From the NCBI GenBank assembly GCA_031763025.1, contig JASSKH010000030.1:4703495-4767494 (forward strand): a stretch of DNA of 64,000 bases. The letters run 5' to 3'. A program made the translations under genes and the position numbers. The notes under the pieces were generated by a model. It did no database searches and had not been told where the DNA came from. It was given only the letters and a program-made list of their open reading frames with translations. The DNA is from Macrocystis pyrifera. Its lineage: Eukaryota > Sar > Phaeophyceae > Laminariales > Laminariaceae. Positions 13,085 to 43,577 of the stretch are shown piece by piece (positions within the stretch are counted from its first letter, which is position 1; every line of letters begins with the position of its first letter).

Positions 13085-13290
13085 GGAGTAGGAGGGGTAC
13101 AGTACTCATGCCATCCATCCATGGCCGTATACCGTAATAGTCGCATGCATGACCACATGGACCCTCGCATCCCGACAATGCCGGGGCAAAGCACGTCGGG
13201 CTTTCACGGACCAGAGGCAGACATTGCTCGTGCCAAAGAAAGCGCGGAGCGCCGTGAGGTGTTCGGCGAGAGTCGAGTCGCATGAAGGGC
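13085..13290 (-). mobile_element. Diverged copy of the S family
   Basis: The S-family words occur in order (CATCCATGGCCGTA, GACCCTCGCATCC, CAATGCCGGGGC, CGCCGTGAGGTGTTCGGCGA), with many substitutions and without the G tract. This looks older than the copies at 25 and 43 kb. A further scrap (TACTCATTGTGATGCACGGC) lies between two G runs at 13783-13852. Confidence 0.6.
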
Positions 13291-24961: not shown

Positions 24962-26244
24962 GTGTATAATAAATAGTGTGTACCTACCTACCCCCTTCCA
25001 CAGGAACCACACGAAACAACGAGGCACTACGTCGGCTACGTAGGTAGTGGCTTGATCTTATCATCTCACAAAAGAACGCATACGTGACACGTTTTTTTTT
25101 TTGTTCCCTTGTCCTTCGCTCTTACCGTTGACCCCCGTGTCGCCGGCGCCGTATGTCTTGACCGTGCTGTGAACGGCGGGGTCCGTAATGAACTGGTCCA
25201 CTCCCTGGATGTCGCACACCTACTCGTACCACAACAACAAAGCGAAGGAAGCCGGTACCCCGTGAAATAATACCGGGAACAATAAAAATAAGGCGGCATG
25301 GGATAGAAGCTCGGGGGTGGCAAGGGGGGGGGGGGGGGGGGGTACTCGATACCACGCATGGTCGTAGTCGTATGATGGTAGACCCTCGCGGAGCACGTCG
25401 GGTTTTCACCGACCAGGCAGACATCGCTCGCACCAAGCGCGAAGCGCCGTGAGGTGTTCGGCGAGTCGCATGAAGGGTGTGCTGCATCCTACTATTAATA
25501 AGTACCGCTTCTAGAGGCGGATTTTCTTGCATATGGATGACAGCTTCAATTAATTCATTTAATTGCTGGTGTGGCCACTTCCAGACACAGCAATGGTTTT
25601 ACTATGTAACTGCCTCGTGGGTGCCTTACCATGTACACACTACGCGACACGATCATCCCCCTTGTGCGGAGGGAAGGTTCTCCCCGCACAAAATTATCTA
25701 ACTCGACCGCCAGCCTTGGTAACCGCCAAAAACAAAAAACAAAAAACGGTACCCTGGCTGTCTATTAATAGCTCAAGTAGTGGGAGGCGTGTTTACAGCG
25801 TCGTCGTCAACCGACGCCAACCCAACCTATATATACCAGGTATATAATACGGGAGGGGGGGGGGGGGGGTTGTACTCGGCTTCATGCATGGCCGTAATCA
25901 TATTACCATAGACCCTCGCATCCCTACAATGCCGGGACGGAGTGCGTCGGGCTTTCACCTACCAGGCAGACATTGCTGGCCCCAAGCGCGAAGCGCCGTG
26001 AGGTGTTCGGCGAGTCGCATCAAGGGTAGGCTAGGCTGCATCCTACTAAGAACCACTTGTGAGGCGGTCTTTGCACATGTACAAAGCTTCAATGAGTTGA
26101 ACTATTTCCCGGTGTGGTCACTTCCAGAGAGAGCAATGGGGTTACTATGTAACCGCCTCGTGGGTGCCTTACCATAACCCCTACGTGATGTGATGATCCT
26201 CCTTGTGCGCAAAAAATCTATAACTCGATCGCCAGCTGTGACCA

Positions 26245-26275
<31 letters not shown>

Positions 26276-29200
26276 GCGTTACCCTGGTTGTCCAGCTCAC
26301 GAAGTGTGCGGTATGTTCTACAGTGTCGTTGCAACCGACGCCAAGTCAACCTATATATGTAATGTATGGGGGGGGGGGGCGTCCGGGGCGTGAGTACAAA
26401 TGGAACGCATAGCCGAGGCCGGTAGCGGGGGTGGGGGGGCATAAAACATTGAACTTTGCTGTTTTCTTCGCCTCAATGGCAAACAGCTGTGGAATATACA
26501 ATGCCGTGATATGTTACCAGCATGTATTTCGAAACATGTCTGTAGATACGCACAGTCCTGGCCTTTTCTTAAGGTGTGTCTTTTGCCATTCTGGCTAATC
26601 ATTCATGCGTACTATAATCCTGGCGCTTCTGCAAATATCACACGCATGCTGCTACCGTGACGGTTTCTCTTGACACTGATCGCAGCTTCGACACGCCTGC
26701 CGCGAACACAACTTGGAAACCCGCCTCTACACAGCCAAGCACAAACAACACAACAAACCAAATTCGAGAGAACCCGCGGCGGTGGCGGAGGCGAGACGTA
26801 TGTACGATTCGGCCCAGCTTTAAACCCTAACCCTAACCTAGCCCAAAATGTTGAAACGTGACTCGACTCTAAACGCTATTAACCCTCGGAGTCTATCCCC
26901 CACCGCCCGCCTGGGAAAACACAACTGATGCTGAGGAAGGGAGCCTGTGTGGCGTATCAAAACACGCTTTTGATCGGACAGCAGATCACGATATACATCT
27001 AGAACCTAACTTGCCGCAGTGAGATAAGCGTGCTGTGCAGGATCTGCTCTACAGCATAAGCACAGGTCCAACCCAGCAAAAAACGTGGTAGATCATGACC
27101 GGGTTATGTATACGTATACGGCTCCCACCCCGCAGCATGAGCGATTCATCATTAAGAGATCGGGAAGTCGTCTGTCTTGATGAAAAATCTAGATCATGGA
27201 GTACGAATCGACCATGTGTCGCAGGTGTGAACCGTGTTGTCGAAGCAGCTGGGTCACGTCGTACACTGGTACGTATTGGTAGTGGTGGTGGTAGTAGTAA
27301 GTAGTGGGGGGAGGGGGGGGGGGGTGCTATCAGGCAACGCAACGCAACGCACCAAGTGGTACGAACGCTGAACAAACCCGGAGCGACAACATCAAGGCCA
27401 GTACCGCGGGGGGGGGGGGGGCGGGTTGGCACGTTCTGTAATACCTGTGACCACGACTTGTCCGGAAGGTCGCTGAGGGTCAACAAAACCTCCCGTGGGT
27501 TGATTGAGCTGGGAAGTAAAAGTAGTCAAGAGACCAAAGCAAAACCAGAAAGCGAAAAAAAAAATACATTGTCGTCCTCACTCTGACATGCACCCGCAGG
27601 GTAGCTCAGCACATATTTTCGAGAAAATGGTTCGACACACTCTTTAGTACGAGGCGGACACAACTAACTCTAATCCAGGGTGGTGCTCGGAAACGATATT
27701 TCACACGGAACTCAGACGGGACGGCAATGCCTTTGGCGGTGATTTTGCTGACGGTAGACGGTATTTCGTTATTTGACGGTAACCAATTTGACGGAAACGG
27801 AAACTCCAAACTATGCCGGTAATATCTCGGCGGAAATAGGACACGACGGAAATTTCGTCGACGGTAGACGGTAGTTCGTTTTTTGACGGTAACCAATTTG
27901 ACGGAAACGGAAATTCCAAAATATGCCGGTAATATCTCGGCGGTAATAGGACACGACGGAAATTCGTTGACGATACACGGTAGTTCGTTTTATGACGGTA
28001 ACCAATTTGACGGAAACGGAAAATCCAAAAGATGCCGGGAACATCTCGGCGGTAACAGGACACGACGGAAATTCGTTGACGGTACACGGTAGTTCGTTTT
28101 TCGGCGGTAAAGCCCTCGGCGGAAAACGGAAAATCCAAATTCGCCGGTATTTGGCATGTGTTGAATATGTGCGTGCCTCGCAAACGGGCAGGCTCTCTTT
28201 TCTCTTTTCATCACATCGAAATTGAGCAGTCTCATGCAAAGAACAACAACAAACACCGGAGAAAATATGAAAGAAGAAAATCAGGGAATAGGCCCGACCG
28301 AGCCTCGTCTAACTCCCCCCCTCATCTGCCATTTTCCATTTGAAACCCAGACTATCATGAGTCGTCCCCGCCTCACCCACAACAAGAGCTGCTCGCCTAC
28401 ACACGATGCGAACAACTGAAGAATGTAATCGTATGAGGACTTTAGCCACTCGTGATCTCGCTTGGATAGTAACAGGTCGTGGAATCTAGGAAATCTCAAC
28501 CACCATGTTTGCCCTCTGCAGCTGCGCCGCCGCCGATTGCTGGGCACTCTTGGCTACTCTAGCTCGTGCCTGCTCTTTCGCGGCATCCAACTCGCGGACC
28601 TCGTCAACCATGTGCATGTGGGCCTGGTAGGCAGGTTTGTGTGGGCGTGGTGGCGTGGTGGCAGGCACTCTCGGTCCACACGTCCACACGCACAGGTTCT
28701 CCCGAAAGGGAACCAGTGGAACCTTCTGACCAGAAAAGAAAAAAGAAAAAGTAACATCCGCCACCTTGGGCGGTATCCGGTACTGACGGTGTCTTTTGAG
28801 CGGCATCCAGTGTTGGCGGTACTCTTCTGGCGGTATCTAGTGTTGACGGAACTTTTCTGGCGGTATCCAGTGTTGCCGGAACTTTTCTGGCGGTATCCAG
28901 TGTTGCCGGAACTTTTTGGCGGTGTCTAGAGTTGACGGTTTTTATTTGCCGGTAGACGGAAATAGTGAATCTGACGGAAATTTATTGCCGGTAGACGGAA
29001 ATGGTGAACCTTGACGGAATTTTTTTGACGGTGACGCAATACGACGGTTGTTTGCTGACGGTAGACGGTATTTCGTTTTTAGGCGTAGTGCCCTTGGCGG
29101 TAGACGGTAACACGAAATGTGCCGGAAAACCGCCGGAATTCCGGGACCGTCCACCAGGGCGGAAAAACAACGACGGGAAAATTTCCGAGCACCACCCTGC

Positions 29201-32200
29201 TCTAATCCTAACCCAAAATACTGAGCTAATCATACTCAATCATGCATGAATCAGCCTCCCCGGCAGTCCTCGATACGGCAAAAACATATCAACCATTGGT
29301 TAGGGCGTTAGGCCCTTTGTCTCGTACACAGTAGTGTGTGTCAACCATTTTCTCGAGTACGGTAAAGTAAGTGGCAGGCTCTGTTTTGCGCGCGACACCC
29401 CCCTGGGACCACAACCGACTAAATCTGCGGTGGAGGTGGTGGTGGTGATCGACGGGGGGGGGGGGGGGGGGGGGGGGGGGGTAAACCAAGGAAAAAGCCA
29501 ATGCAGCGCAACGCAACTCAACTCAACTTACACAACTTATCTCAACTCAAGGCAAGGCAAGGTAAACGCCACGCAAGGCAAAACGCACCAAGAAGTTTCC
29601 GCGGCTGTTATGGTGGGTGAAGTGGGAGAACGCTTGGGCCACCTGCCACCAGCACCGCTGTTCGTCGTCCATCCCGCCTTGGTCGCCGATATACCCATTG
29701 TTGCCGTTGTACTACAGCAGTAGTCATGGTGTGGGTTGGGTCGAACAAAAAAAAAACAAAGCGAGAGTCACGTGGGAGGTAGGGAGGGGGGGGGGGGGGT
29801 GGGGGGGGGGTGGGGGGGCGTACTCATTTGATGATTGCCGTAGTCATTTGGCCATTGACCACGCATCCCTTTCGAGACGGAGCACCGTTCCTACTCCTAA
29901 TAGATACACCTCCAACAATTGGGCGCTCATTACGTTGTTTCCGTATATTACATAGAAACTTTTTGCCAATCTTATCATTTGTTGCTTGCCTTAGTCATTT
30001 GGCCATTGACCACGCATCCCTTTCGAGACGGAGCACCGTTCCTACTCCTAATAGAGACACCTCCAACAATTGGGCGCTCATTACGTTGTTTCCGTATATT
30101 ACATAGAAACTTTTTGCCAATCTTATCCCCTTCCTGTCTGGCCGCCTGTGGCCACCATCTATCTCCTAGGATAGCGATCGTTTTCTCGCTGCTATCTAGT
30201 GTATCAAACTCCTCCATGTCACATTCGTCTATTTCCCTCATCTCCTCCTCTAACACATCCCGTTCCTCCTTGTATACTTCATATTCCTCTACTATGTGAA
30301 TTCTACTCTCTATTGCTTTGCCACACGGGCACATCTGTGCATCTATTTCCTCCTCCTCCTCCCGGCTACTGGTATACCTCTTTCTTCTTTCTGGCAGGTC
30401 CAGGTCACATACACGAAATATCAGTTTCAGACTTCTCGCGAAGTCCAATGGGCCGTGCAAATACGTTTTCACTTCTATCCCTTCGCTCAATCCCCCGTAT
30501 ATCTCTAAGTGTTTTCCCGATTCCACCTTTGTTTTAGCGCTAGCCTTTCCCTCATTTCTATCATTTCTTCTACTTCTGCCTTGTACCTCCCAAACTTCCC
30601 GGCGGACATCACCTCTTCTTGGTTTCCCCCTATATCCTTCCATCCTTTCTCAACTACGCTACCCCACCTTATTCCAGCTCGCCCTTTTGTTACTTTCTCC
30701 CATACAGCTCTATCAACTATGGCTGGCAACCTCTTTTTTGGCATGTTCCTTACTTCATATTGCCAGTTCAACTTTCTCATGTCTCTATTCGTCTTGAGTG
30801 GGTGCATTCCCAGTTCTGCTCTTAACACTGTACTACTAGTCGTACTTGAGCATCTTAGGAGTTTTTTAGCTGCTGTCATTTGTACCGTTTCCAACTGTTT
30901 TACGAGCTTCGCGTTTTCTTACCACACTTCTCCTGCATATTCTAGCTTTGGTACTATCACATTCATCAGGATACATATCTTAATCCTATTAATAGTGTCA
31001 AGGTGCGAGTCTGGTAGGATCGCATCCATCTTGCCTACTTGTGCCTTACCCTTTCCTATAAAATTTGCTATATGTGTATCCCAAGAGTAGTCTTTTGAGA
31101 TCTCTACGCCAAGGTATATATACTGGTCTACGATCGGCAATTCATCTTCTCTCCACTTCCAACTGAAATTTACCGGGTTCACCTTATCTTCGATACAAAC
31201 AACTACCGCGCATTTCTTGACGTTCGCCGTTACCCTCCATTTCCCAGTGTATTCTAGCGCCTTCTCTATTTGTTTCTGCAATCCTTCGGATGTTTCTGAC
31301 ATCCCCACGAAGTCATCCGCAAACATCAATCCCGACACCGTATCTTCTCCCACCGTGACTCCCTGCCTTGCTGCTTCGACTGCTACTATCAGGTCGTTAA
31401 TATATACCTGGTATATATCTTGAATAGGGTAGGTGACAACGTACATCCCTGTGTAACTCCTTGTAGAATATCAAGATACTCCATATTTTTCCCCGTCCAG
31501 CATCAAAGCACTTCTCGCACATCCCGTCACATTTTTCATCATTCTCCACATCTTTCCTCTGATTCCTATTTCCCACAGTTTTTTCCACGATACATTTTCT
31601 CCATACTGTGTCGTAGGCCTTCTGTACATCTAGAAAAAAACAGCACCTTGTTAGTCCCGCGTCTTTCCTTCCTTGGATTATCTTACCTAAGGTGTACACA
31701 TAGTCTACGCAGGGGGGTAGGGGGGGTGGGCTAGAGTGGGGTGGGGTGAGGTAGGGTGTGGTGGACCGGGATGTGGTTGGGTAGTGTTACAACTTCTACA
31801 TTCCAGCTCGTCCCGCACGAGACCTATTATACGCTGCGCGATTTTCTGCACAAGAAATGGTCACACGTGTGATAAGTGTCTTCTCCTCTCCCCCTGTACT
31901 ACATATCTGCGCTAAGAATACAAAAAGCAAAACAATGAAAAACAAAAGGAAGACTGCGAACAATTTTATACGTTTGCTCCGGTAGAGCCGACCCCGCCCC
32001 CCCGCCTTCTCCCCTCCCCTTCTCTCCCCTCTCACCTTGATGTACTTTCCATCCAAGAAAGGCTCGACCAAGAGGTACCGGAAGCCGCCGGCCTCTGAAA
32101 CTGTTCTCCAGCCTGTACACGTCGCACTGCGATATCTGCACACGAGAGAGTGGCCACAGTGGTCATCAGCGGGAGGAAGGAGAGCATTAGCACCCGTACC

Positions 32201-33235
32201 GGCAAGAGCGAAAGCGATGCCGGCAGATAACCACCACCAGCAAAATGAGAAGAACAATCGCTACGAAACGAACACCCAACACCAAGGTCAACATACCAAG
32301 ATCAACACCGACACCAACCAACACCAACACCAACACCAATACCAGCACCAACGCCATCAACCACAGCACCAACACCACCAGCATCAACACCAACACCAAC
32401 ACCCCACAGGCACGATCACAACCAACGCCTACACTATCACTTACCACCAACACCAACAACCAACACCAACACCAACAACCAACAACCAACACAGCCACAC
32501 CAACACCAACACCACCAACACCAACACCAACACTATCAACACCATCAACACCAACAAATCGACACCATCAACATCATCAGCATCAATCAACACCATCAAC
32601 ACCAACACCACCAAGACAAAACACGCATCTTCGCGAGAGAGCACGCCGCCGCGAGGAACCCACTGCCTCCAAGCCCTTTCTCCGCCGACTGTGGGAGGGA
32701 ATGGATGCCCCCGTATTGGGGGAGGGGGGGAGGGGTCTCCTTGGAATCACCACTATTACGGGGGTCCATAGTAAATAGGACCTACGGTACACATCAAAAA
32801 CTATATAATTACCTATTTTTACCAACAATTTTTTGGCCCCGTTTACTATATAAACGTCGAACAGATCATCTACCCCTACTTCATGGTCTACTACGACGGG
32901 GGACCATAGTAAATAGGACCAAATAATGTTAGCAAAAATAGGGAACTATATAGGTTTTTGTGTTCACCGTAGGTCCTATTTACTATGGTCCCCCGTATTA
33001 GCTATTTCAGGTCAGTATCAGATTCATTCACGGTCTGTATTTTCGATCTAGCTCATGCTGCCGGCTGGGAGCCGTTTAGTCCGCATGATCAGGCACACGT
33101 TTCCTGGGTCGGATCCGTGCTATACAGATCTTGCACTGACACTTCACGAGGGTAGGTCAGGTCAGGATCTGGATGTTCTACAGTAGATCATGCTCTGTCC
33201 GACTTGCGGAGGATGTACACCAACCATTCCAGGTA

Positions 33236-33300
<65 letters not shown>

Positions 33301-35649
33301 GGTAGGGGGATACTCATTATCATGCCTGGACGTAGTCGTATGACCATAGACAGACCCTCGCATCCCCACAATGCCGGAACGGAGCACGTCGGGTTTTCCA
33401 CCGACCAGGCAGTGGACCAAGCGAGAGGCACCGTGAGGTTTTCGGCGAGTCGCAAGAAGGGCGAGCTGCATCCTACTACGAACCGCTTGTGAGGCGGACT
33501 CACAAGTGGATGACATTTATTTGTTTTCTGGTGTGGCCACTCGGGAGGGGGAGGGGGGACGGGCGAGGCGGAGACAGGCGGGGGGGGGGGGGGGGGGGGG
33601 CGGTTACCTCAAGCCCAGACGGCGCTCTGCGGAGGGCGGAGTACGTGGCGTTGTTACAAATGTGGCTCGTGGCGAAGCTCCGGATAAGGCCGTTGAAAAC
33701 GTTCGCCTGCTTTGCCGCCAGCTCGTGGCATCGTAGGTCTTGCTTTAGGCCCCTAACTTGCTCCGATACGCTCACAAGAGAATCTGTCCACGACCACAGC
33801 TACAACAGCGACAACAACGACGACAACAACAGTAACAAAAAAAAAAAAAAAAAAAAAAAAAAAAACGTGGGAGCAAAAGGCAGGATCGGTCATTCGAGTG
33901 AGAAACCTACACTGCCAAAAGAGGGAAAGGGTCAGCTGTGACATTTAAACTATCACGGCAAAAGGCAGGATCGGTCATTCGAGTGAGAAACCTACTGCCA
34001 AAAGAGGGAAAGGGTCAGCTGCGACATTTAAACTATCACGGGGGACCATAGTAAATGGGGACCAAATTTTGTTAGTAAAAATAGGGAAATATATAGGTTT
34101 TTGTGTGTACCGTAGGTCCTACTTACTATGGTCCTCCGTAATAGACTGCTGATGCTGTTGGCGTCGCCCGCCCCCCCCCCCCCGGGCCCCGCCCCGCCCC
34201 GCCTCCACCCAATCCCGCTCCCATCGATTCCACACTAACTCAAGTCATACCACACACAACAACTACTACTATTACGGGGGACCATAGTAAATACCCTGGT
34301 ACCTGGTAGGACCAAATATTATTAGTAAAAATAGGTAAATATATAGGTTTTTATGTATACCATAGGTCCTATTAACTATGGACCCCCGTAGTGCACGGCC
34401 TACTACTATGGCCTACGGCTTACTGCTATGCCTACGGCCTACGCCTACATTTCCGTTTGTATAATAAATGCCACACCTCACTCTTGACACTATAATAACC
34501 ACACCCCGGCGCACGGCCGCGCAGCGCAGCGTGGCGCGGTGCGGCGCCGCGCACTCACTTGCTCTGCTTGCCGACGAGACAGACCGGATTCCGCGACCTC
34601 CCACCGGCCCCGAGGTCCCACATGCGGTAGCAGTGGCGCATGCCACCCACCGCGAATGGGCTGTCGCGCACGCGTACGTTGAGGTCTCTCATGTGCACCA
34701 CCAGACTATCACCCTGGGTGCAAAGGTACAACAGAAAGGCGGCAGGGGCGGCGGTTGCGGAGGAGGCTTTCGGTGAATGCGCGGGTAGCCTAGGGTAGGG
34801 TAGGGTAGGGTAGGCGGTGGCGGTGAAGAATAAACACCGGCAATCTGCGGGCTTTGGGTTGTCACAAACCTCCGAAAAAGTGCCCAGAATGTCTGGCTTT
34901 TTAAGGTGCGTTGAGGACTCTCATGTGCACCATCAATTGGTCGCCCTGGGTACAAAGGTACAACCGAAAGGCGGCCGCGGACATTTTCTAGAAATACGCC
35001 GGCAGGGTAGGGTAGGATAGGGTAGGTTGCAGTGAGGTAGGGTGCAGTGAGGTAGGGTGCAGTGAGGTAGGGTAGGGACACCTGCGACAAACCAAAGCAA
35101 TAGAGGCGTTCTACGATAGAGGTAGGTTCACCCTCATTTTTCTGAGGCTCCTCACTTGACCTCAAGGAGCTCCACACCTCACCCCGAAAACTGACTTCAG
35201 CAAAAATCAAATTGCCTCCCGATGCATAATCCCACGGCCCAAGTACACAAAAACGTCATTTTCCGAACCAACCTTGGCATTCCGACGATTTTGGGTTAAC
35301 CCTTTTAGTACCGCAGTCCGGTTTTGGGGACAAATCACTTGGAATTAGACTGGTTTGTCCCCAAATCGGGACTGCGATACGAAAGGGGTTAAGAAACCCC
35401 GTCAATCAGAAAACACTTTAGCGGAAGCGTGTGCTACAGTACCTCTATCGAAGCACGCGTCAAAATGGTTGTTCAGAGTGCCGCCCGCCGAGTACAAGAA
35501 ATGAAGAAGGGAACACTACAAAAGAAAAAAAAAAAAAACTGCTTGAGCATAGAGACTGCACAAAAACAAAACAAATCCTGCGATATTTTGGGAGCTGGGA
35601 AGGTGTGTTTTTAATATCATGGAACAGAAATGATCAAGAAAGCACCAAA

Positions 35650-35682
<33 letters not shown>

Positions 35683-37553
35683 CGTGAACAAATAACCTAC
35701 CCGTAGGTGGAGCCTGTTGCAGCAGTAGACGTTCTCGTTGGTGCTGTTCCATTCAGCCTCCTCGACGTCCTTGCTTCGGTGACCTGCTCGCCAACCCGCC
35801 CACCCCACGGACGTTAGGTTCGTCCGGATTGTCACACCACGCGCGGTTGGGGGGAAGCAGGAGCAGGAGGAAGAGAAGGAGTAGGAGGGGGGGAGGAGGG
35901 AGGAGGGAGGGAGGGGGGGGGGGGGGGGGCGTACTCATTTGTTGCTTGCCTTAGTCATTTGACCATTGACCACGCATCCCATCCGAGACAGAGCACCGCA
36001 GACGGGGGAGGGGGGGGCGGCGTACTCATTTGTTGCTTGCCTTAGTCATTCGACCATTGACTACGCATCCCTTTCGAGACGGAGCACCGTTCCTACTCCT
36101 AATAGACACCTCCAACAATTGGGCACCCATTACGTTGTTTCCATATATTACATGGAAACTTGTTGCTAATCTTATCCCCTTCCTGTCTGGCCGCCTGTGG
36201 CCACCATCTATCTCCTAGGATAGCGATCGTTTTCTCGCTGCTATTCAGTGTATCAAACTCCTCCATGTCACATTCGTCTATTTCCCTCATCTCTTCTTCT
36301 AACACATCCCGTTCCTCCTTGTATACTTCACATTTCCTACTATGTGAGTTCCACTCTCTATTGCTTTCCCACACGGGCACATCTGTGCATCTACTTCCTC
36401 CTCCTCCCGGCTACTGGTATACCTCTTCTTTCTGGCAGGTCCAGGTCTCCTACACGAAAGCGCAGTTTCAGACTTTTCGCGAAGTCCACTGGGCCATGCA
36501 AATACGTTTTCATTCCTATCCCTTGCGTCAATCCCCCGTATATCTCTAAGTGTTTTCCCGATTCCACCTTGTTTCTTGGTGCTAGCCTTTCCCTTCTTTC
36601 TGTCCTTTCTTCTACTTCTGCCTTATACCTCCCAAACTTCCCGGCGGACATCGTCTCTTCTTGGTTTCCCCCTATATCCTTCCATACTTTCTCAACTACG
36701 CCATCCCACTTTATTCCAGCTCGCCCTTTTGTTACTTTCTCCCATATGGCTGGCAACCTCTTTTTTGGCATGTTCCTTACTTTATATTGCCAGCTCAACT
36801 TTCTCATGTCTATTTGTCTTAAGTGGGTGCATTCCCAGTTCTGCTCTTAATACTGTATTTCTAGTCGTACTTGAGCATCTTAGGAGTTTTTTAGCTGCTG
36901 TCATTAGTACCGTTTCCAACTGTTTTACGAGTTTCGCGTTCCCTTCCCATACTTCTCCTGCAATATTCTAGCGTTGGTACTATCACATTCATCAGGATAC
37001 ATATCTTAATCCTATTAATAGTGTCAAGGTGCGAGTCTGGTAGGATCGCATCCATCTTGCCTACGTGTGTGTTTTTACCCTTTCCTATTACTTTTGCTAT
37101 ATGTGTATCCCAAGAGCAGTCTTTTTAGATCTCTACGCCAAGGTATGTATACTGGTCTACGATCGGCAATTCATCTTCTCCCCACTTCCAACTGAAATTC
37201 ACCGGGTTCACCCTATCTTCGATACAAACAACTACTCCGCATTTCCTGACGTTCGCCGTCACCCTCCATTTCCTGGTGTATTCTAGCGCCTTCTCTATTT
37301 GTTTCTGCAATCCTTCGGGTGTTTCTGGTATCCCCACGAAGTCATCCGCAAACATCAATCCCGACACGGTATCCTCCCCTACCGTGACTCCCTGCCATGC
37401 TGCCTCGACTGCTACTATCAGGTCGTTAATATGTATCTTGAATAGGTGGGGGGGGGGGTGTACTCATTATCATGCATGGCCGTATTCGTATGACCATAGA
37501 CCCTCGCATCCCTACAATGCCGGGACGGAGCACGTCGGGTTTTCACCGACCCA

Positions 37554-37636
<83 letters not shown>

Positions 37637-40600
37637 GAAAGAGGAGGAGGGCGAGGGTGAGGATGAGTGCGGCCAGCGGCATTGCTGTTCAGGTCACCCG
37701 GCCCGACAAACGAACTCTACTTGTCAATTGCTGACATTCAGTGCGCTAGGTAAATAAGCAGGGTAGGGGGTTTCGCAACGGCGTAGAGGGTAACGGCGCC
37801 GCCTGTGCCGCCCTTGCGAGGATGCTCCGGTTTGGACAACGCAGATGCCCACATCATCAACGCTAGCCTCGCTCACCTTCCAGCGCCAAGCATCACAAAA
37901 AAAATCACAAAATCACAACCAGCGACAACCCAAAAAAACAGTCCAAAGCAAACCGACCTACAAGCAACACGCACAATGAAAGATCCCGAGCCCGAAGCAG
38001 GCGAATTCGAACAACCTCCTCTCACCTCCAGTCCTACCCACCATCCCCATTCCCTCCACCCCCCCCCCCCACTCCACCCCCCCCTCCCCCCCCCCCCCCC
38101 CCCCCCGCCCCTACCCTCGCCCGGAAAAAAAAAAACAAAAACGACTGAACATAGTGACAACGATGAATGATGCATCACAACACACCTCGCGGCGGTCGCC
38201 GAGCACACGGGGCTGACGGAGGAAGAGATGTTGCCGAAGGTTCTGCTCAGGGTGTCCGGACGGCCTACCGCCTTCGGACCCCTCACGGCGTCCCCCTTCG
38301 ACACAAGCTTCGCGTGATGGAACGTCCCCTATTGTGTCACGATTCGTCAAGTCAAGGCATCCAGGATTGCGTCAAGTCAAGGCATCCAGGTTTGCGTCGA
38401 GTCAAGTCGCGTTGAATCAAGGCCTGTCACGTTGTCAAATCAAGCAAGGCAAAGCCACGTGGGCGTCGACGCAAAGCAAAACAAGGCAGGTCAAGTCGAG
38501 TCAACTCGACAAGCATGGCATACCACACCGTACAGCACCATCACATATCACCACACAACATGCCATTGCGTTCCATACCGTAGCGTACCGGCCATGCCGT
38601 ACGAAACCATCCGTACCCAAGACCATCACCAGACACCACAGACCATACCATAGCACACCTCATCACACCACCCCACCCCACCCGAAACACACCACACCAC
38701 ACCATGCCTTACCACACCATACCTTACCACACCATACCGTACCGTAGTATACCATGCCATACCGTACCATGCCATACCGTACCATACTATATCATACCAT
38801 ACCATACCATACCATACCATACCATACATACCATACCATACCATATATATACTATACCATACCATACCATACCATACCATACCATACCATACCATACCAT
38901 ACCAAACAATACCATACCAGGCCATACCATACCATACCATACATTACTACACTATACCGTACCATATCACACCATACCATACCTCGGCGATTTCGCAAAG
39001 ATCTTTGAGCAGGCAGAAATCCTCCGGCCCGACGCCGACCGCGTGCAAGGTCAGCCTCCGGCCGAAGTTGTCGCGCATCGTGCGGAGCCAGGAGGCCGGC
39101 AGCTGCTCCCTGTTGCACGTGGCGTTCATATCACTCGGCTGGCCAAGCGACGGCGGCGATTTACAGCGATACGTCAGCATCGAGAAAGGACAACAAGAAC
39201 GAGAGCACCTAAAGAACCAGAACATACTAATACGGGGGACCACAGCAATTAGGACCACATATTGTTAGTAAAAATGGTTAATATATAGGTCTTGGCGTTT
39301 ACCACAGGTCCTGTTTACTATGGTCTCCCGTAATAAGAAACAAGAACACATCGAAAACAAGAAACGCATCAGAAACGAGAACACCTCAAGAACGACGACA
39401 TTAGCCGCAACAAAAAACATAAACATGAACACGACCGTGAACATGAACAAGAGCATCAACCAAACAAAAACATGAAACACTCAAGAACAAGAACAAGAAC
39501 AAATTCCAGGAACAAGGACAGGAAAAAAAACACACGAATATGACTACGAACAAGAACATACACACAAGAACAGGAGCGAAAATAAAAACACAAGAACAAG
39601 AACATTAACCCTTTGAGGACTGCAGTCCGGTTTTGGGGACGAACCACTTAGAATTTGAGTGGTTTGTCGTTTGCCCGAAAAGGGTTATTAACAACACGAA
39701 TACCTACAGGGACGAGCAAAAAAGCAAGCATGAACAACAAGCAACCGCGAATAAAAACATGAAAATCAAGCACATCGAGCAATGCTTCCGATTTTGCTCC
39801 ATAACTTCTTTGGGCTGAGGACAACTACAAAAAACGCACACAAAATATATGCAATAAATGGTAGTTACGTACGTACAAAGTGTAGGGCGGACTAACATCA
39901 ACACCAACTTCAACTTCAACTTCAACTTCAACTTCAACTTCAACTTCAACACCATTGCCAACACCACGCCAACACCATCCCCAGCACCGACCAAATCCAC
40001 ACCAACATCAACACCACCACCTTTTGCCACCACAACCATCACCATTTCTGCGGCAGCGACAGCACCTTCGCCGCCACAACAACAACATATCTACTGCTGC
40101 AGCACCAACACACACCCGACACCAACACCAACACCAACACTCCCTTCTGACACCAACAAACAACCCACCCCCACGACCTTGCCGCGCATCGACCCCAACC
40201 AACACAACCACACAACCCACCCCCCCCCCCCCCCCCCTCACGCGCGCGCGCTCCGTCTCGAAAAGGGACGCGTGGTCAACGGTCAAATGACTCAAGGCAA
40301 GAAACGAATGAGTACGCCCCCCCCCCCCCCCCCCCGCCCAACACAGAACGCAACTATCCTCTTCAAACTCCTCTTGAGATAGGCCATACCCATTCTCAGC
40401 TGAGCGGAAAAAATAAACAAAAAAAAATGTTCCCGAGGGGGAAAAAAATGGTGCACGACACATCGGGCAGATAGATCATCGATTCCCACATTATTACCTA
40501 GATATTTCAGGCAAAGATATATCAAGTACCTGCATGATCCAGCTCATCTTGCCAGGCAGGAGCCGTACAATCTATACAAAATCTAGCATCTACCTGGTAC

Positions 40601-42563
40601 GTACGTAGCACATACCTGGAATCGCTTAACGGCCGGGTATGATCTACGGAGATTGGATAGATCGCCGTCAGTCCGACGTATGGAACGGTGTGAAGAAACC
40701 AGATTTCTCCATACACGATATACACTTACGTTATTTTTATTATATGGACATCTGCCTTTTTCTAATGAGAAGGAGCCCCACAGGAAACCCATCGTCAGAT
40801 TTCCCAAAGGAAATAAGAAATGCAAGAGCGGTTATACTTAGGACAGTGTGGAGCGTACTCCTTTTCTAAGATGAGACAGTCTAGCCTGGGGGCCAATTTA
40901 CTGGTTTCTTAAATGAGAACTATATCCTGAGCCAGTATCTCGGCTTCACATTTATTACATCTATCCCGTGTCGGTGTATCGGTTTCTTAAATAAAAAATC
41001 TAGATAAGAGACTCCGCCTGGGCAAATCCCGATTTCCTATTCGAGGGCCGGTACAGCAGTATACGTTTCCCCCTCCCCCAGCGCCGAATTGTGGGAGGTG
41101 TCTCTATCAGGAGTAGGAACGGTGCTCCGTCTCGAAAGGGATGCGTTGTCAATGGTCAAATGACTAAGGCAAGCAACAAATGAGTACGCCCCGCCCCCCC
41201 CCCCCCCCCCCCCCCCCCCGACTACGGCCATGCATGACATCGAGTACACCCCCCCCTCCGCCCCGGCCCCCAGGACATTTTTTTATTTTCGGTCTTTATT
41301 TTTTCCCCCTACTGAAAGTCGTCTACTAAGTCCTCACTCACCTCGACCATCGACTGAGCAGAGGCGTTAGAAAAAATATACCTGGTACCTGGTACTGGTA
41401 TATACCAATCTGACCGCAAATTCGTACAGCGATCCTTTCGTAAGTCATATCAAGGCATAAACCGTCCGTATGATTCCATCCAAAGTGGTGATTGGTGCTC
41501 CAGACCCCCCCCCCCCCCCCCCGTGTCTGGGACAAAAAAAAAAAACTGGTGGGGTGCCGTTTTGTCCTTGTTTTTCGTGTACCTCTGGCTATACATGCTC
41601 TTGCTGTAGCGCACGCAGCACGTGTCTTTCTCACCCGGCCGTCGGACAGAAAAATAAGCACGAACTGCTCCCCCGCGTCGTCAACGCCTCCTTTCGCCAC
41701 ATTCCACGCGGTCGACAAACCGGCGCCGTAGCTGGTACCGTGTGTAGGCCTGATTTTCGCCTCAAGGTCCTGCAAACAACACGCACAGAGCAAAAAGACG
41801 CCAAGATTGGCGCACACCGAAAAAAAAAATGAAGCGTTTTCCGGAGGGCGCGGCGGGGGGGGGGGGGGGGGGGGGGGGGGGGGTGAGGGGGGGGGGGGGG
41901 GGCGGGGGGGGAGAGGGGAGCGGAGGGGGAGCGTGTGTTAATATCATGCGTGGCCGTAGTCGTACGATCTCATGACCATAGACCCTCGCATCCACACGGG
42001 GAGGGTTATACTGTAGTTGCGTTTCGCGTACAGCGGTATATCTCATGGTCAAAGGGTAGAGAGAGGCATGTCACCTATTGTACCGCATTCGTAGAGATAT
42101 GGCAGGCCTTGTCCATGGGCAGGGGAGGAGAGCATTTTTCAGGGCCCCTCCGCCGTGCTTTTTTTAGCGAGCGACACGAGTCGAAGGCGAGCTCTCGTAT
42201 TCTAGTGACAAAAACGAAAGGAAGAGACGAGACCCCATCAGCGTGGACTGTGAAAATGGCTAAGTCATCGAATAGACTACTTACTACTTCGAAGCACATC
42301 AGCAATAAACGTTAGACGCCAGCATACTACCCGATATCTACAGTACTCCCAGTAGTATGCACCGGCATATCTGGTATATTGCAAGCAAATCCCTCAATCG
42401 AAACTTCAGCGATCAACAGCAGAGTCACACAAGTCACCTTTCGAAGCGAGCGGAGGTCCCTTCCTTGCATGCGCTTGCCCCTTAGCTGTACCCTGGCCTC
42501 ATCGTTGAAGGAAATCACGGAGTAACGGTCGCAGGGAGAGGAGTGCCTGCAAGCCAGTTGGTC
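23768..42563 (-). CDS. VWA-domain alpha-kinase (VwkA-like), gene level, 5' end missing
   Basis: Eleven minus-strand exons: 42563-42438, 41769-41635, 39138-38983, 38328-38186, 35773-35701, 34713-34559, 33752-33608, 32135-32036, 29711-29589, 25219-25126 and 23988-23768. Every junction is phase-consistent, about 490 codons in all. The first four encode a von Willebrand A domain (DRYSVISFND, GTSYGAGL, LSDGRPSD across a junction, LHAVGVGPEDF, ISSSVS). The last six encode an atypical alpha-kinase: PFAVGGMRHCYRM, YLLVEPFLDGKYIK, AFSHFT, VCDIQG, a GAGDTG loop and the zinc-site HRCNAIC. In Dictyostelium VwkA the same order of domains gives a Ser/Thr kinase of the contractile-vacuole/myosin system; the role here is not known. 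The exon with the metal-site DxSxS was not found upstream. One kinase exon has a one-base frame disagreement. Confidence 0.85.
24020..24530. repeat. Degenerate (GGTATC)n minisatellite
   Basis: Hexamer words TATCGG, TAGCGG, TATCAG and GTTATC run through the intron between the last two kinase exons. No higher-order unit is visible. Confidence 0.85.
24729..24772 (-). mobile_element. 3'-end scrap of the poly-C-tailed LINE
   Basis: A GGGGGG run followed by CGTACTCATTTGTTGCTTGC and CAGTCATTTGACC is the extreme 3' end of the LINE family (element sense minus). Confidence 0.65.
24920..24958. repeat. Poly(A) tract of about 38 bp
   Basis: An uninterrupted A run within a kinase intron (poly-T in the sense of the gene). 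It is not joined to a recognised retroelement. Confidence 0.9.
25126..25219 (-). CDS. VWA-kinase exon: catalytic DIQG
   Basis: Reads VCDIQGVDQFITDPAVHS then YGAGDTGVN, containing the catalytic Asp/Gln loop and the Gly-rich C-terminal loop of alpha-kinases. Acceptor ACGAGTAG, donor GTAAGA, phase 1. Confidence 0.85.
25325..25850 (-). mobile_element. S-family element, near full length
   Basis: An 18-bp G run is followed by the S sequence: GTACTCGATACCACGCATGG, CGTATGATGGTAGACCCTCG, CGCCGTGAGGTGTTCGGCGA, GGTGTGGCCACTTCCAGACA and GAGGGAAGGTTCTCCCCGCA. It ends TATACCAGGTATATAATACG before another G run. On the minus strand the element ends in poly(C). It lacks the 65-bp block with CATCCC..CAATGCCGGG present in the other copies. 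Confidence 0.75.
25851..26380 (-). mobile_element. S-family element, adjacent copy
   Basis: Follows the previous copy head-to-tail, separated only by a shared G run of about 19 bp, and closes with another G run at about 26367-26379. It contains a C run of about 23 bp. The right end CAACCTATATATGTAATGTA lacks the TACCAGGTA insertion present in the copies ending at 25850 and 43577. Confidence 0.75.
26816..26842. repeat. Telomere-like (CCCTAA) words
   Basis: TAAACCCTAACCCTAACCTA gives about three CCCTAA units, too short for a telomere. It may be an interstitial remnant. Confidence 0.4.
27405..27535 (+). mobile_element. Truncated tRNA-derived SINE
   Basis: The 3' half only. GTACCGCGGGGGG, CCTGTGACCACGACTTGTCC, TCGCTGAGGGT and AAACCTCCC, ending GGGAAGTAAAAGTAG, match the 3' half of the SINE at 57568-57903. 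Confidence 0.55.
27676..29199. mobile_element. hAT-like DNA transposon, non-autonomous, 1.52 kb
   Basis: The inverted ends are CAGGGTGGTGCTCGGAAA and its reverse complement at 29182-29199. The flanking 8-bp direct repeat is CTCTAATC at 27668-27675 and 29200-29207. CAGGG ends with an 8-bp target duplication are diagnostic of the hAT superfamily. Inside are four tandem units of about 105 bp made of GACGGT/CGGTAGACGG words (27.7-28.1 kb) and five of about 33 bp (GGCGGTATCCAGTGTT, 28.76-28.93 kb). Between them are about 600 bp with minus-strand frames rich in Ala, Glu and Lys (HMVDEVRELDAAKEQARARV). No transposase catalytic motif was recognised. It lies in a kinase intron. Confidence 0.85.
29440..29482. 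repeat. G tract of about 29 bp
   Basis: An uninterrupted G run in the kinase intron, followed by degenerate AACTCAACTC and AAGGCAAGG words. Confidence 0.8.
29589..29711 (-). CDS. VWA-kinase exon: YNGNNG and AFSHFT
   Basis: Forty-one codons in phase 0 on both sides, TGCTGTAG to GTGCGT. It reads YNGNNGYIGDQGGMDDE then VAQAFSHFTHHNSRGNFL. The His of AFSHF is one of the zinc ligands of alpha-kinases. LINE copy 1 ends about 110 bp upstream of the acceptor. Confidence 0.85.
29820..31712 (-). mobile_element. LINE retrotransposon copy 1, 5'-truncated, poly-C tail
   Basis: Minus-strand frames carry reverse-transcriptase motifs FLDVQKAYDTVW (near 31.6 kb) and LMFADDFVG (near 31.3 kb), then a C-terminal CPCGKAIESRIH zinc knuckle typical of LINE ORF2. 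The frames (31699-31397, 31446-30919, 30894-30505, 30643-29975) do not connect, so the copy is dead. The sense-strand 3' end is ACAAATGAGTACGC then a long C tract. The last about 150 bp is tandemly duplicated (29.82-29.97 and 29.97-30.12 kb). The 5' end also abuts a G-rich run. It lacks endonuclease and upstream RT, and sits in the kinase intron in the gene's sense. Confidence 0.85.
32036..32135 (-). CDS. VWA-kinase exon: VEPFLDGKYIK, with a frame disagreement
   Basis: Opens ISQCDVYRLEN in phase 0 after GTGTGCAG and ends GGFRYLLVEPFLDGKYIK before GTGAGA in phase 0. Both halves are typical alpha-kinase sequence, but they lie in different frames: the exon is 100 nt where 99 is expected. One extra T in the CAGTTTCAG stretch would explain it. 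It is either a real frameshift in this allele or a sequencing error. Confidence 0.7.
32290..32612. repeat. (ACCAAC)n minisatellite
   Basis: Hexamer CAACAC/ACCAAC repeats fill about 320 bp directly upstream, in gene sense, of the kinase exon at 32135. The Thr/Asn/His-rich frames are shadows. Confidence 0.9.
32759..32995. mobile_element. MITE family B (CGGGGGACCATAG), two copies
   Basis: The copy at 32897-32995 has both ends (CGGGGGACCATAGTAAATAG and its reverse complement) and a TA after its right end. A second, inverted copy from 32759 to about 32850 has lost its right terminus. Ends and TA targets place the family with Tc1/mariner-type elements. Confidence 0.75.
33238..33600 (-). mobile_element. 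S-family element in a kinase intron, with a 62-bp G tract
   Basis: A G run of about 62 bp (33238-33299) precedes TACTCATTATCATGCCTGGA and the usual S words to GGTGTGGCCACT. After that the copy is cut off, then a G run of about 20 bp ends at 33600. The second G run lies seven bases from the donor of kinase exon 33752-33608. Confidence 0.75.
33608..33752 (-). CDS. VWA-kinase exon: alpha-kinase N-lobe helix
   Basis: Encodes GLKQDLRCHELAAKQANVFN, matching the D...A..FN helix of alpha-kinases, to RRAPSGLE before GTAACC. A long C tract (transcript sense) begins seven bases after the donor GT. Confidence 0.75.
33835..33864. repeat. Poly(A) tract
   Basis: An A run of about 29 bp following GACAACAACAGTAAC repeats. 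Confidence 0.85.
33875..34037. repeat. Tandem duplication of about 82 bp
   Basis: The unit GCAAAAGGCAGGATCGGTCA...TTTAAACTATCACGG occurs twice with a few differences. The second copy runs straight into MITE B at 34039. Confidence 0.85.
34039..34138. mobile_element. MITE family B copy
   Basis: CGGGGGACCATAGTAAATGG at the left, TACTATGGTCCTCCG at the right, followed by TA. About 100 bp, non-coding. Confidence 0.8.
34275..34388. mobile_element. MITE family B copy with a 15-bp insert
   Basis: Both ends are intact and flanked by TA on each side. Compared with the other copies it carries an extra CCCTGGTACCTGGTA at 34294-34308, inserted after a TA and ending in TA. Confidence 0.85.
34559..34713 (-). 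CDS. VWA-kinase exon: start of alpha-kinase domain
   Basis: Acceptor CACCCAG, then GDSLVVHMRDLNVRVRDSPF followed by AVGGMRHCYRMWDL, the first strand-turn motif of alpha-kinases. VGKQSK carries the likely ATP-binding Lys. Donor GTGAGT, phase 2. The first about 65 bp with its acceptor is duplicated at 34911-34977. Confidence 0.8.
34679..34977. repeat. Partial duplication of a kinase exon start
   Basis: The segment 34679-34744 (acceptor plus first codons of the kinase exon) is repeated at 34911-34977: GAGGACTCTCATGTGCACCA...GGTACAACCGAAAGGCGGCC. The upstream copy keeps CCCAG and an open frame of 13 codons, then TAA. Between them is a (TAGGG)n stretch at 34790-34814. Confidence 0.8.
35103..35458. 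mobile_element. TIR element family A, copy 3, carrying a nested insertion
   Basis: The ends are GAGGCGTTCTACGATAGAGG and CCTCTATCGAAGCACG. The interior matches copy 1 in reverse complement (ATTCCGACGATTTTGGGTTAA) but is interrupted by the TTAA element at 35300-35388. Confidence 0.75.
35300..35388. mobile_element. TTAA-target MITE (piggyBac-like), 89 bp
   Basis: Begins CCCTTTTAGTACCGCAGTCC and ends GGACTGCGATACGAAAGGGG, with TTAA on both sides (35296-35299 and 35389-35392). The empty site, with a single TTAA, exists in the family A copy at 11.02-11.27 kb. CCC ends and TTAA targets are the hallmark of piggyBac-type elements. Confidence 0.85.
35701..35773 (-). CDS. VWA-kinase linker exon
   Basis: Encodes KDVEEAEWNSTNENVYCCNR then LHLR before GTAGGT, phase 0. 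With the acceptor at CGAAG the phase fits the preceding exon; an acceptor eleven bases upstream (GAGCAG) does not. It is short and has no known motif, so it is the least certain exon of the chain. Confidence 0.5.
35937..37443 (-). mobile_element. LINE retrotransposon copy 2, 5'-truncated, poly-C tail
   Basis: About 90% similar to copy 1 but lacking its first 260 bp. It keeps LMFADDFVGIPE (near 37.35 kb) and the C-terminal region, in broken frames. At the 3' end two tails are stacked: a scrap at 35937-36000 and the main tail at 36024, each after a G run. At its 5' end it abuts G run plus S fragment at 37447. It lies in the kinase intron in gene sense. Confidence 0.8.
37447..37635 (-). mobile_element. 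S-family 3' fragment with an 80-bp G tract
   Basis: A G run, then TACTCATTATCATGCATGGC to GGGTTTTCACCGACCCA, then a G run of about 80 bp (37554-37635), the longest in the window. It is truncated at the G tract. Confidence 0.75.
38186..38328 (-). CDS. VWA-kinase exon: end of VWA domain
   Basis: Opens GTFHHAKLVSKGDAV after ACAATAG, the usual GGTFHHA phrase after the last VWA strand, then reads LSRTFGNISSSVS. Donor GTGTGT leaves phase 2. Confidence 0.75.
38560..38982. repeat. (ATACC)n pentamer satellite
   Basis: ACCAT/ATACC repeats, nearly perfect from 38.70 to 38.98 kb, more degenerate to the left. The array starts exactly at the donor of the VWA exon ending at 38983. Confidence 0.9.
38983..39138 (-). 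CDS. VWA-kinase exon: VWA C-terminal half
   Basis: Starts PSD after CTTGGCCAG, so the junction makes LSDGRPSD, a hallmark phrase of VWA proteins. It continues through LTLHAVGVGPEDF and LKDLCEIAE, ending in phase 0. The donor GTATGG is the first unit of the (ATACC)n satellite that fills the next 400 bp of intron. Confidence 0.8.
39233..39330. mobile_element. MITE family B copy
   Basis: CGGGGGACCACAGCAATTAG to TTTACTATGGTCTCCCG, with TA on both sides. About 98 bp. Confidence 0.8.
39609..39684. mobile_element. TTAA-target MITE, second copy
   Basis: TTAA then CCCTTTGAGGACTGCAGTCC and GGTTTTGGGGACGAACCACT. The right end CCGAAAAGGG is followed by TTATTAA. It is related to the element at 35300, with a shorter or decayed right half. 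Confidence 0.65.
39897..39950. repeat. (AACTTC)n microsatellite
   Basis: A short hexamer run; CAACACC words continue to 40020. Confidence 0.85.
40245..40336 (+). mobile_element. 3' end of the poly-C-tailed LINE, plus orientation
   Basis: GCTCCGTCTCGAAAAGGGAC, GGTCAACGGTCAAATGACTC and AAACGAATGAGTACG, then a C tract of about 18. Only the last 75 bp of the element is present, preceded by another C run. Confidence 0.7.
41070..41264 (+). mobile_element. LINE 3' end plus S fragment, plus orientation
   Basis: ATTGTGGGAGGTGTCTCTAT to AACAAATGAGTACGCCC is the last about 120 bp of the LINE. After a long C tract comes an S-family end (GACTACGGCCATGCATGACA, GAGTAC) with its own C tract. This shows two insertions into one C tract. 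Confidence 0.7.
41635..41769 (-). CDS. VWA-kinase exon: VWA, Thr metal site
   Basis: After acceptor TTGTTTGCAG it reads DLEAKIRPTHGTSYGAGLST; the Thr of GTSYGAGL is the second metal-site residue of VWA domains. It ends IFLSDGR before GTGAGA, phase 0 on both sides. Confidence 0.8.
41855..42000 (-). mobile_element. G tracts with an S-family fragment
   Basis: Several G runs, interrupted by A, T or C (41855-41935), are followed by AATATCATGCGTGGCCGTAG and GACCATAGACCCTCGCATCC. The copy stops there. Confidence 0.65.
42438..42563 (-). CDS. VWA-kinase exon: VWA, central strand
   Basis: Acceptor TTGCGGCAG and donor GTGACT, phase 0 on both sides. It encodes DRYSVISFNDEARVQLRGKR, the classical beta-strand of VWA domains. 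The preceding exon, with the metal-binding DxSxS, should lie above 42.6 kb but could not be found. Confidence 0.7.
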
Positions 42564-43028
42564 CTGCCGCAAGAAAGCCCACAACCCGAGCCCACAACCC
42601 GCCCACGCCCCCCCCCCCCCCCCCCCCCAAGGTACGGCAAGGCATGTCGAAACCCCACCCCGATAGAAACGCAAAGCACACATAGATGTGAAACGGTTAA
42701 TATGTATGGCTTGGCTTGATATGTTTTTACGTTAGTAAATATAGCCAAAATAAGGTATACCTACGTGTTTTCGGGCATTAATAGGTACAACTGTGAATAT
42801 CGCACTCGGGAAAAGGCTTTCCTGGCGCCCCCCCTCACTGGCCAACGCTCAATCGTATCAAACGAGTTATATATACGTACCAGTACATATTTGGCTGCGA
42901 TCTTGTGACATCATTGTGAACAGTGAATACCGTGATACACCCAATATCGGCGATAGAGGGCCGTTTCATGGTGAGATGGCTAGAGGAGGAGCACGCCACG
43001 CGCGGCGGCAAGAGGATGGCGAGGGCGC

Positions 43029-43577
43029 GGGGGGGGGGGGGGGTACTCATTATCATGCATGGCCGTAGTCGTATGACCATAGATCCTCGCATCCCTGCAA
43101 TGCCGGGACGGAGCACGTCGGGTTTTCACCGACCAGGCAGACCTTGCTTGCACCAAGCGCGAAGCGCCGTGAGGTATTGGGCGAGTCGCATGAAGGGTGA
43201 GCTGCATCCTACTATTAATAAGTACCGCTTTTAGAGGCGGATTTTCTTGCATATGGACGACAGCATCAATGAATTGATTTAATTTCTGGTGTGGCCACTT
43301 CCAGAGACAGCAATGGGTTCACCATGTAACTGCCTCGTAGGTGCCTCACCACATACACACTATGTGATACGATCATCCCCCTTGTGCGGAGGGAAGGTTC
43401 TCCCCGCACAAAAATGATCTAACTTGACCGCCAGCCATGGTAACCGCCAAAAAAAAAAAAAAAAAAGCGGTACCCTGGCTGTCTAGCTCACGCAGTGAGA
43501 GGCGTGTTTTACAGCGTCGTCGCCAACCGACGCCAACCCAACTATATATATACCAGGTACCAGTATATAATAGGGGG
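43029..43577 (-). mobile_element. S-family element, most complete copy
   Basis: About 540 bp between two G runs. On the minus strand its final 75 bp (GCTCCGTCCCGGCATTG, GGGATGCGAGG, ATGGTCATACGACTACGGCC, ATAATGAGTACCCCC) resembles the LINE 3' end (GCTCCGTCTCG, GGGATGCGTGG, ATGGTCAAATGACTAAGGC, AAATGAGTACGCCCC). The rest is unrelated and non-coding. It contains TACCAGGTACCAGTA at 43551-43565. It is probably a SINE mobilised by the LINE; its 5' head is not obviously tRNA-derived. Confidence 0.8.

Follow-up and report, generated by a model that had tools for sequence, protein, structure and literature searches.

What have the long G and C runs of a kelp genome to do with the retrotransposons that lie in them? 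The question arises from a stretch of 64,000 nucleotides of Macrocystis pyrifera DNA (GCA_031763025.1, contig JASSKH010000030.1, positions 4,703,495 to 4,767,494), hereafter the window, in which a first-pass annotation had described a long interspersed nuclear element (LINE) and a partner short interspersed nuclear element (SINE) with poly(C) tails, both sitting in poly(G)/poly(C) tracts. The observation as a whole was confirmed, and genome-wide counts and sampled flanks indicated that it holds well outside the window. Its interpretation had to be narrowed: a C-tailed LINE and a nonautonomous partner, here called S (about 530 bp), do prefer sense poly(C), while the SINE label in its strict sense and the view of the tracts as targets only did not stand, and the elements account for only part of the long G runs. 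Coordinates are those of the window, and "sense" denotes the element's own strand. On the evidence presented below, we consider it likely that the LINE and the LINE-derived S retrotranspose by target-primed reverse transcription (TPRT) at poly(dG).poly(dC) runs.

The LINE and S pair is present in thousands of copies in the kelp genome. Searches covered the M. pyrifera assembly (537,376,219 bp in 223 contigs), where the pattern GAGTACG(C)7 occurred at 4,582 places (2267 + 2315), versus 11 (5 + 6) for the reversed pattern. A 20-mer of S had 10,943 exact places (5441 + 5502) and a 20-mer of the LINE 3' end had 4,400 (2203 + 2197), versus 0 for either reversed word. With a fragment of the reverse transcriptase (RT), 3521 first-look candidates were obtained, and the best 150 of these, which were scored, all matched. 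Ten 4-kb regions taken at fixed coordinates contained eight copies, covering 1,460 of 40,000 bp.

We tabulated both flanks of a sample composed of loci found with an internal word of S (L009 to L038) or with the RT (L049 to L078), the fixed-coordinate regions (L039 to L048), the window, four full LINE regions (L079 to L082), and eight tail-selected loci (L001 to L008). The first LINE of the window, fetched again as L049, was counted in that LINE's place; removal of repeats by 5' junction reduced 192 rows to 144, and rows too close to a locus end were uncounted. Within 35 nt of the sense 5' boundary, 80 of 127 copies had a run of at least six Cs (C6+) and 0 of 127 had such a run of Gs (G6+), while random background 35-mers gave 506 and 486 of 20,000, respectively (about 2.5% per strand). 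Copies reaching the 3' end had C6+ in 106 of 133 3' flanks and G6+ in 1 of 133, again at 35 nt. Leaving out the tail-selected loci gave 74/112 on the 5' side and 93/118 on the 3' side, and at a 60-nt scale G6+ was found 5' of 1 copy in 124. In the fixed-coordinate regions, 3 of 4 LINE copies had C6+ in the 35 nt of 5' flank. Siting in sense-C tracts is a strong, strand-specific preference and not an absolute rule.

Complete 5' ends of the LINE gave the same picture. The ten that were read (L083 to L092) start about ACAAAATCTAGATCTGGATGGG, follow upstream sequences that were unrelated by eye, and all have five or more consecutive Cs (5 to 20) within 25 nt upstream. Exact AAAATCTAGATCTGGATGGG occurs at 14 places genome-wide, which include six of the ten ends read; 13 of the 14 also matched a search for CCCCC at most 6 nt upstream of AAAATCTAGATCTGG, the sole exact end lacking a nearby CCCCC being C191:12591532. 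A simple-repeat target in a fixed orientation was thus found, as a preference, both in the sampled flanks (80/127 versus 0/127) and at these 13 of 14 full-length ends.

The state of a site before insertion could be read from relatives of L009. The joined flanks of the S insertion in this locus were searched, and the best 40 of 177 candidates were scored. Seven loci had these flanks split by about 530 to 545 bp (S itself was read in two of them, L009 and L010), and 26 uninserted relatives, in which the flanks are contiguous, were 76 to 79% identical. The junction C runs of the 16 relatives read (L093 to L108) measured 7, 9, 13, 7, 9, 7, 4, 7, 7, 6, 7, 7, 5, 7, 7, and 12 (computed, except for the 9 of L094, which was read by eye), that is, C6+ in 14 of 16, C5 in one, and C4 in one. 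The L009 site of S was a C run before insertion, so that the predicted presence of a G/C tract ahead of the element holds at the single site examined. Among the collected loci, a search for further empty sites gave 89 candidate rows, and the 25 inspected looked like unrelated matches of the miniature inverted-repeat transposable element (MITE) kind.

Target-site duplications (TSDs) were sought in 102 copies as shared words of at least 9 nt across both junctions with at least three non-C letters. Five copies had one, whereas 20 shuffles gave 1.15 on average and at most 3: a C run followed by ATCA in L061, CCGTCTTTCCTGT at the LINE of L007, CCCCCCCAAGCCG in L081, CCCCTACTTG in L060, and a weaker case at the S of L007, since S itself contains a similar word. 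By eye, L073 has a further one, a C run followed by TCCAATG. Every TSD observed opens with Cs (two to many), followed by about 4 to 11 other bases. In L060 the target was CCCC, yet 36 Cs stand at the 3' junction, indicating that tails are made by the element and that C tracts are also produced by insertion. The tracts are therefore not targets only, as first proposed: C runs can precede insertion, as at the L009 site, and elements add C to them, as in L060.

The relation was also examined starting from the tracts. The window has 35 G/C runs of at least 10 nt, of which 13 adjoin a strand-matched copy, 1 lies inside a copy, and 21 are without a recognized copy, a share of neighbors that is underestimated because the automatic criterion misses short fragments (for example, 13801-13833). 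None of the 35 adjoins a copy on the opposite strand. In the fixed-coordinate regions, a strand-matched copy was found at 5 of 8 long tracts and an opposite-strand copy at 0 of 8. The idea that the elements would explain the many long G runs thus holds for part of the window runs (13/35) and not for all of them (21/35); the elements use and lengthen G/C runs and need not have created all of them. Since the lengths of long G/C homopolymers are uncertain in long-read assemblies, no weight should be placed on the exact length of a run. Among the long runs without a recognized S or LINE neighbor are 29454-29481 (28 nt), 42608-42628 (21 nt), and 55237-55255 (19 nt), which are either free targets or decayed insertions.

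We then consider what the two elements are. The LINE copy of L081 measures 5.3 kb and is itself 5' truncated, about 0.2 kb short at its 5' end, which suggests a full length near 5.5 kb. Its one frame, broken in places, comprises an N-terminal part that had no Pfam match, a putative endonuclease, an RT, and a C-terminal cysteine/histidine motif. The RT matched RVT_1 (PF00078) with an E value of 8.8e-28, above the curated cutoff, and its solved structural relatives include LINE-1 ORF2p and R2; a search for viral relatives gave 26 pattern matches, none of which was confirmed by tblastn in IMG/VR. The putative endonuclease matched PF14529 (E = 0.00041) and also PF03372 (E = 0.037), though neither match reached the curated cutoff, and its region contains WNV, QES, GDFN, and TDH, which we take to be the characteristic motifs. 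Judged from its sequence, the element is a LINE of about 5.5 kb, probably with one open reading frame and an apurinic/apyrimidinic endonuclease (APE)-type nuclease. The RT is of the type found in retrotransposons without long terminal repeats (non-LTR), and the copies combine variable 5' starts, a sign of truncation, with a near-constant GAGTAC end; the classification as a LINE thus held on the RT, with the APE-type endonuclease matching only below threshold. Assignment to RTE-X is possible, the name being borrowed purely by analogy with the pair outlined in an Ectocarpus study (PMC12477816). The 5' region of the LINE contains tandem units of about 130 bp, as read from match offsets in the best 40 of 341 first-look candidates. 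The idea of a ribozyme in the 5' end of the LINE was rejected because none of 21 matches, most of them in L086 on a C-rich flank, reached its gathering score.

S had been taken for a SINE parasitizing the LINE, on the ground that its last 75 bp or so resemble the LINE 3' end. This resemblance was reproduced, with 58 of 81 aligned positions identical between the consensus 3' ends. In the S copy at 43044..43577 (S43), the 3' end matched the LINE over 53 bp (79%, E = 6e-05). The same copy carries a 5' block in common with the LINE: its positions 33 to 72, TGGGTTGGCGTCGGTTGGCGACGACGCTGTAAAACACGCC, align with 40 bp close to the LINE 5' end (90%, E = 6e-11), with differences in the outermost bases. 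Another copy, S25a, had the 5' match and no 3' BLAST match in the same comparison. Across five S copies, each taken with the best of four LINE ends, local scores at the 5' end were 33 to 60, versus shuffle maxima of 23 to 25, and two of these alignments extend to about 75 bp. The middle of S, about 400 bp, had no similarity to L081 1375-6684 beyond a T run and a chance-level 12-mer (E = 0.36). In the window, Rfam gave no match at the gathering threshold and ARAGORN found no tRNA, although a diverged head could be missed. S also has an internal T run, 18 nt long in the copy at 43044, and such a run should stop RNA polymerase III. A SINE derived from tRNA, 5S, or 7SL was therefore rejected on the lack of Rfam and ARAGORN matches, the T run, and the 5' block: the shared 3' end stands, while a polymerase III-type head was not found and the 5' block matches the LINE. 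By its sequence, S looks like a LINE-derived nonautonomous element that shares both LINE termini and has a middle part without a LINE match.

A common 3' structure recognized by the RT at both elements received weak support from modeling. For an alignment of 24 LINE and S ends out of the 46 collected, RNAalifold predicted 13 pairs, the outer stem being closed by GAGUAC; the 24 ends were handpicked and the outer-stem letters were fixed by the selection pattern, so that these letters are no evidence. On a poor joint alignment of LINE and S it predicted no pairs.

Two further observations concern S. In L079, near sense position 3690, an S fragment is fused directly to mid-LINE sequence at a word resembling GAGTAC, with no C tract, which suggests a template switch between LINE and S RNAs. 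L026, L027, and L038 have common flanks and an S copy without GAGTAC or a C tail; this S seems to have been carried by another repeat.

TPRT at poly(dG).poly(dC) would proceed as follows. The endonuclease of the element would nick the G strand within a G run, and the GGG-3'OH end would pair with the RNA's C tail, which lies behind the 3'-terminal structure that LINE and S would have in common. Reverse transcription would follow, often ending early so that the copy is 5' truncated, and a second nick would fall some bases 3' of the C run. Slippage of the RT, or the length of the tail, could extend the C tract, giving a longer or new tract to be hit again; since an insertion would leave a tract open to another hit, stacked insertions would result. 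S would move in trans through the shared 3' end. In effect, the logic of L1, in which a poly(A) tail meets a T-rich primer, would be rewritten in C and G.

A first rival explanation concerns the site of selectivity. An endonuclease that is not G specific could be combined with selection at priming, only G-ending nicks or breaks annealing to the C tail, or, as a special case, insertion could use fragile G tracts or G-quadruplexes and dispense with the endonuclease of the element. G tracts are indeed prone to breakage and structure, and L060 entered a run of just four Cs, so that a long tract is unnecessary. However, the TSD layout, Cs and then about 4 to 11 other bases, resembles ordered endonucleolytic TPRT, even though it does not by itself separate cutting from annealing, and we regard selection at priming as a less likely but plausible explanation. 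Further removed is the proposal that insertion itself gave rise to the C tracts on either side, as a tail on one and as duplicated C, or C added without a template, at the 5' junction on the other, so that neither tract was there beforehand as a target. Tails do add C, as the C36 junction at the CCCC target of L060 testifies, and copies are stacked in earlier tails (window 41080-41256 and L080). Nevertheless, the 16 uninserted relatives of the L009 site that were read carry the C run, and for this reason we rejected the 5' tracts as mere by-products. In addition, non-templated C on the 3' end of the cDNA would appear as G on the sense 5' side, where G6+ was found in 0 of 127 copies, and 21 of the 35 long window tracts have no recognized copy, by the criterion that misses short fragments. 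Altogether, this proposal appears improbable to us.

Least probable, and by our estimate very unlikely, is random insertion followed by selection that spared only copies in inert G/C tracts. Site-specific elements often do sit where they are harmless, as a general argument, but selection against harm is not expected to be strand specific, as the absence of 5' G6+ flanks and of opposite-strand copies at the window and fixed-coordinate tracts (0/127, 0/35, and 0/8) would require.

Several points count against TPRT at poly(dG).poly(dC). In 45 of the 124 copies tabulated, the 60 nt adjoining the 5' boundary contain no C6 run; some of these are internal breaks or duplications (L049 and L056) or hold runs of C4 to C5, and L062, L022, and L046 had no run longer than three Cs in the 36 nt upstream that were inspected. 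In the fixed-coordinate regions, none of 4 S copies had C6+ in the 35 nt of 5' flank. The pre-insertion state comes from one insertion site, its 16 relatives being copies of one repeat and not 16 independent sites. An anchored TSD test was not significant at n = 56 (4 versus a shuffle mean of 1.19 and maximum of 5; 2 versus 0.47, maximum 3; 1 versus 0.27, maximum 3). Finally, the Pfam matches of the endonuclease are subthreshold, its cutting specificity is a prediction, and in the shared 3' structure a single pair covaries, changed on both sides between LINE and S.

In the window itself, two 5'-truncated LINE copies lie on the minus strand. The first (29820..31712) ends, in its own sense, in ATGAGTACG followed by an interrupted C tract at 29786-29818, and it carries the 3' part of the RT in one open piece (RVT_1, E = 3.3e-05, below the curated cutoff). 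Its final 151 bp are duplicated in tandem (29824-29974 and 29975-30125, 97% identical), as though the RT had begun a second time from the 3' end. The second copy (36021..37446) is 91% identical to the first, and its 5' end adjoins G11 at 37448-37458. Both copies have the sense 3' end ATGAGTACG and C tract in common with four LINE 3' fragments. Two of these are on the minus strand, one of 69 bp (35930..35998) stacked next to the second LINE copy with G17 at 35913-35929 on its tail side, and one of 36 bp (24740..24775) with G-rich sequence on both flanks. The other two are on the plus strand, at 40250..40316, between C18 (40220-40237) on the 5' side and C19 (40317-40335) on the 3' side, and at 41080..41188, with a tail that includes C26 at 41194-41219. 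Stacked in the C tract immediately past the latter is an S 3' fragment of 29 bp (41219..41247, plus strand).

The remaining S copies are all on the minus strand. Three are near full length: 43044..43577, with G15 at 43029-43043 next to its tail and, at its 5' end, G6/G9 at 43573-43588, which overlap the boundary; 25343..25851, between G19 (25324-25342) and G15 (25855-25869); and 25872..26365, stacked on the preceding one, with G12 at 26368-26379 on its 5' side. A 5'-truncated copy (33311..33541) has G64 on its tail side (33236-33299) and a 5' flank that is G rich up to G21 at 33580-33600. The 3' fragments comprise one of 91 bp (37461..37551) flanked by G11 (37448-37458) and G82 (37554-37635), one of 33 bp (13801..13833) flanked by G19 (13782-13800) and G16 (13837-13852), one at 7751..7821 in which GAGTACATCTCTCCTATCGAGTAC precedes the C tail, and a degraded one (41942..41993) close to the G29/G16 runs at 41855-41902. 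A further fragment (13149..13289) has no recognizable C tail. Of these 10 copies or fragments of S, 8 have a clear GAGTA(C)-type end with a C tract, so that the initial description was right for both LINE copies and slightly generous in counting at least ten S ends. It was accurate for the 5' ends abutting G/C runs at 31712, 37447, 25850, 33581, and 43577, all of which we found at these coordinates, and for the stacking of insertions in one tract, seen in the pair 25343..25851 and 25872..26365 and in the LINE and S fragments at 41080..41188 and 41219..41247.

Other repeats were noted around these elements. In L008, L011, L012, L028, L030, L037, and L084, a T-rich sequence ending in AGTAAC, with the form CACTTGGTTCTAGTAAC in six of the seven, directly precedes a long C tract, and L011, L012, L028, L030, and L037 have one duplicated segment in common; these sequences may belong to a third family with C tails or form a composite target. 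A repeat at 56829-57131, 57565-57852, and 51241-51521, and in L064, contains a tRNA-like stretch in reverse (read from the L064 flank) and forms an inverted pair in the window; ARAGORN found no tRNA there. MITE-like short palindromic repeats around GGGGACCATAGTAAATAGGACC occur at 32753-33001, 34048-34144, 34309-34394, and 39251-39336, with relatives at other loci. The segment 61890-63643, on the minus strand, has an integrase core (rve, E = 1.3e-4, below cutoff) and a weak chromodomain match (E = 0.13) and is probably the remains of a Gypsy-like LTR retrotransposon. A degenerate tandem array of short period lies at 38656-39007.

How does this pair compare with known systems? Among non-LTR retrotransposons, tails that are A rich or made of short repeats are common, as are targets that are T rich or gene specific, and L1 has a poly(A) tail and a T-rich endonuclease site. 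Like L1, the kelp elements combine a homopolymer tail matched to the target strand with 5' truncation, a putative endonuclease, and an RT, and one of the best relatives of known structure is LINE-1 ORF2p; unlike L1, they have a C tail, a G-strand target, and a conserved 3' end common to the nonautonomous partner. RIME and NARTc share their 5' as well as their 3' ends with their LINEs, and S resembles them in sharing both LINE ends. It differs from the ingi/RIME and L1Tc/NARTc pairs of trypanosomes (treated in PMC4748587 and PMC4035085) in its middle of about 400 bp without LINE similarity and in that the 5' end of the LINE gave no convincing match to a ribozyme.

Insertion into simple repeats is itself familiar, since Waldo, Mino, and Kibi of the R1 clade are simple-repeat-specific non-LTR retrotransposons. 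One survey adds Togen, at (TG)n, and some HERO families, and it places the majority of target-specific families in the early-branched, Tx1, and R1 groups, of which Tx1 and R1 are APE type (PMC4640811). The kelp elements likewise insert into a simple repeat, but their target is a homopolymeric G/C run, sometimes of merely 4 to 7 bases. Titles and abstract openings in the open-licence literature gave, among the matches listed, no LINE that targets G/C runs; target-specific and simple-repeat LINEs are already known, and it is the G/C-homopolymer landing site that we did not find described there. We tentatively suggest, at slightly less than even confidence, that a brown-algal non-LTR lineage, possibly RTE-X and so outside Tx1 and R1, has tail-matched poly(dG).poly(dC) targeting, that its C tails lengthen and seed these tracts, and that this self-feeding system of LINE, S, and tract has raised the genome-wide load of long G/C runs. 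A pair with C tails and G-run targets would mean that tail and target can also be matched through the strongest base pair, possibly in a lineage that does not belong to the groups reported to hold most target-specific families, and it would account, in a testable way, for some of the long G/C homopolymers of the kelp genome.

The closest parallel lies in another brown alga. According to the Ectocarpus study, RTE-X LINEs are accompanied there by RTEX-N1_Ec32, a nonautonomous element of about 600 bp with more than 6000 copies that shares the LINE 3' end and whose 5' region was of an origin that could not be determined (PMC12477816). The main text of that study has no word beginning with CCCC or GGGG, the motifs of its Fig. 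1C and the supplements lying outside that search. Both systems thus consist of an abundant LINE and a nonautonomous element with the LINE 3' end, and, likened by description and not by sequence, they may be of the same kind. In contrast to the Ectocarpus account, the 5' block of kelp S matches the 5' end of the LINE itself, which by analogy suggests an answer to where the 5' region of the Ectocarpus nonautonomous element may have come from.

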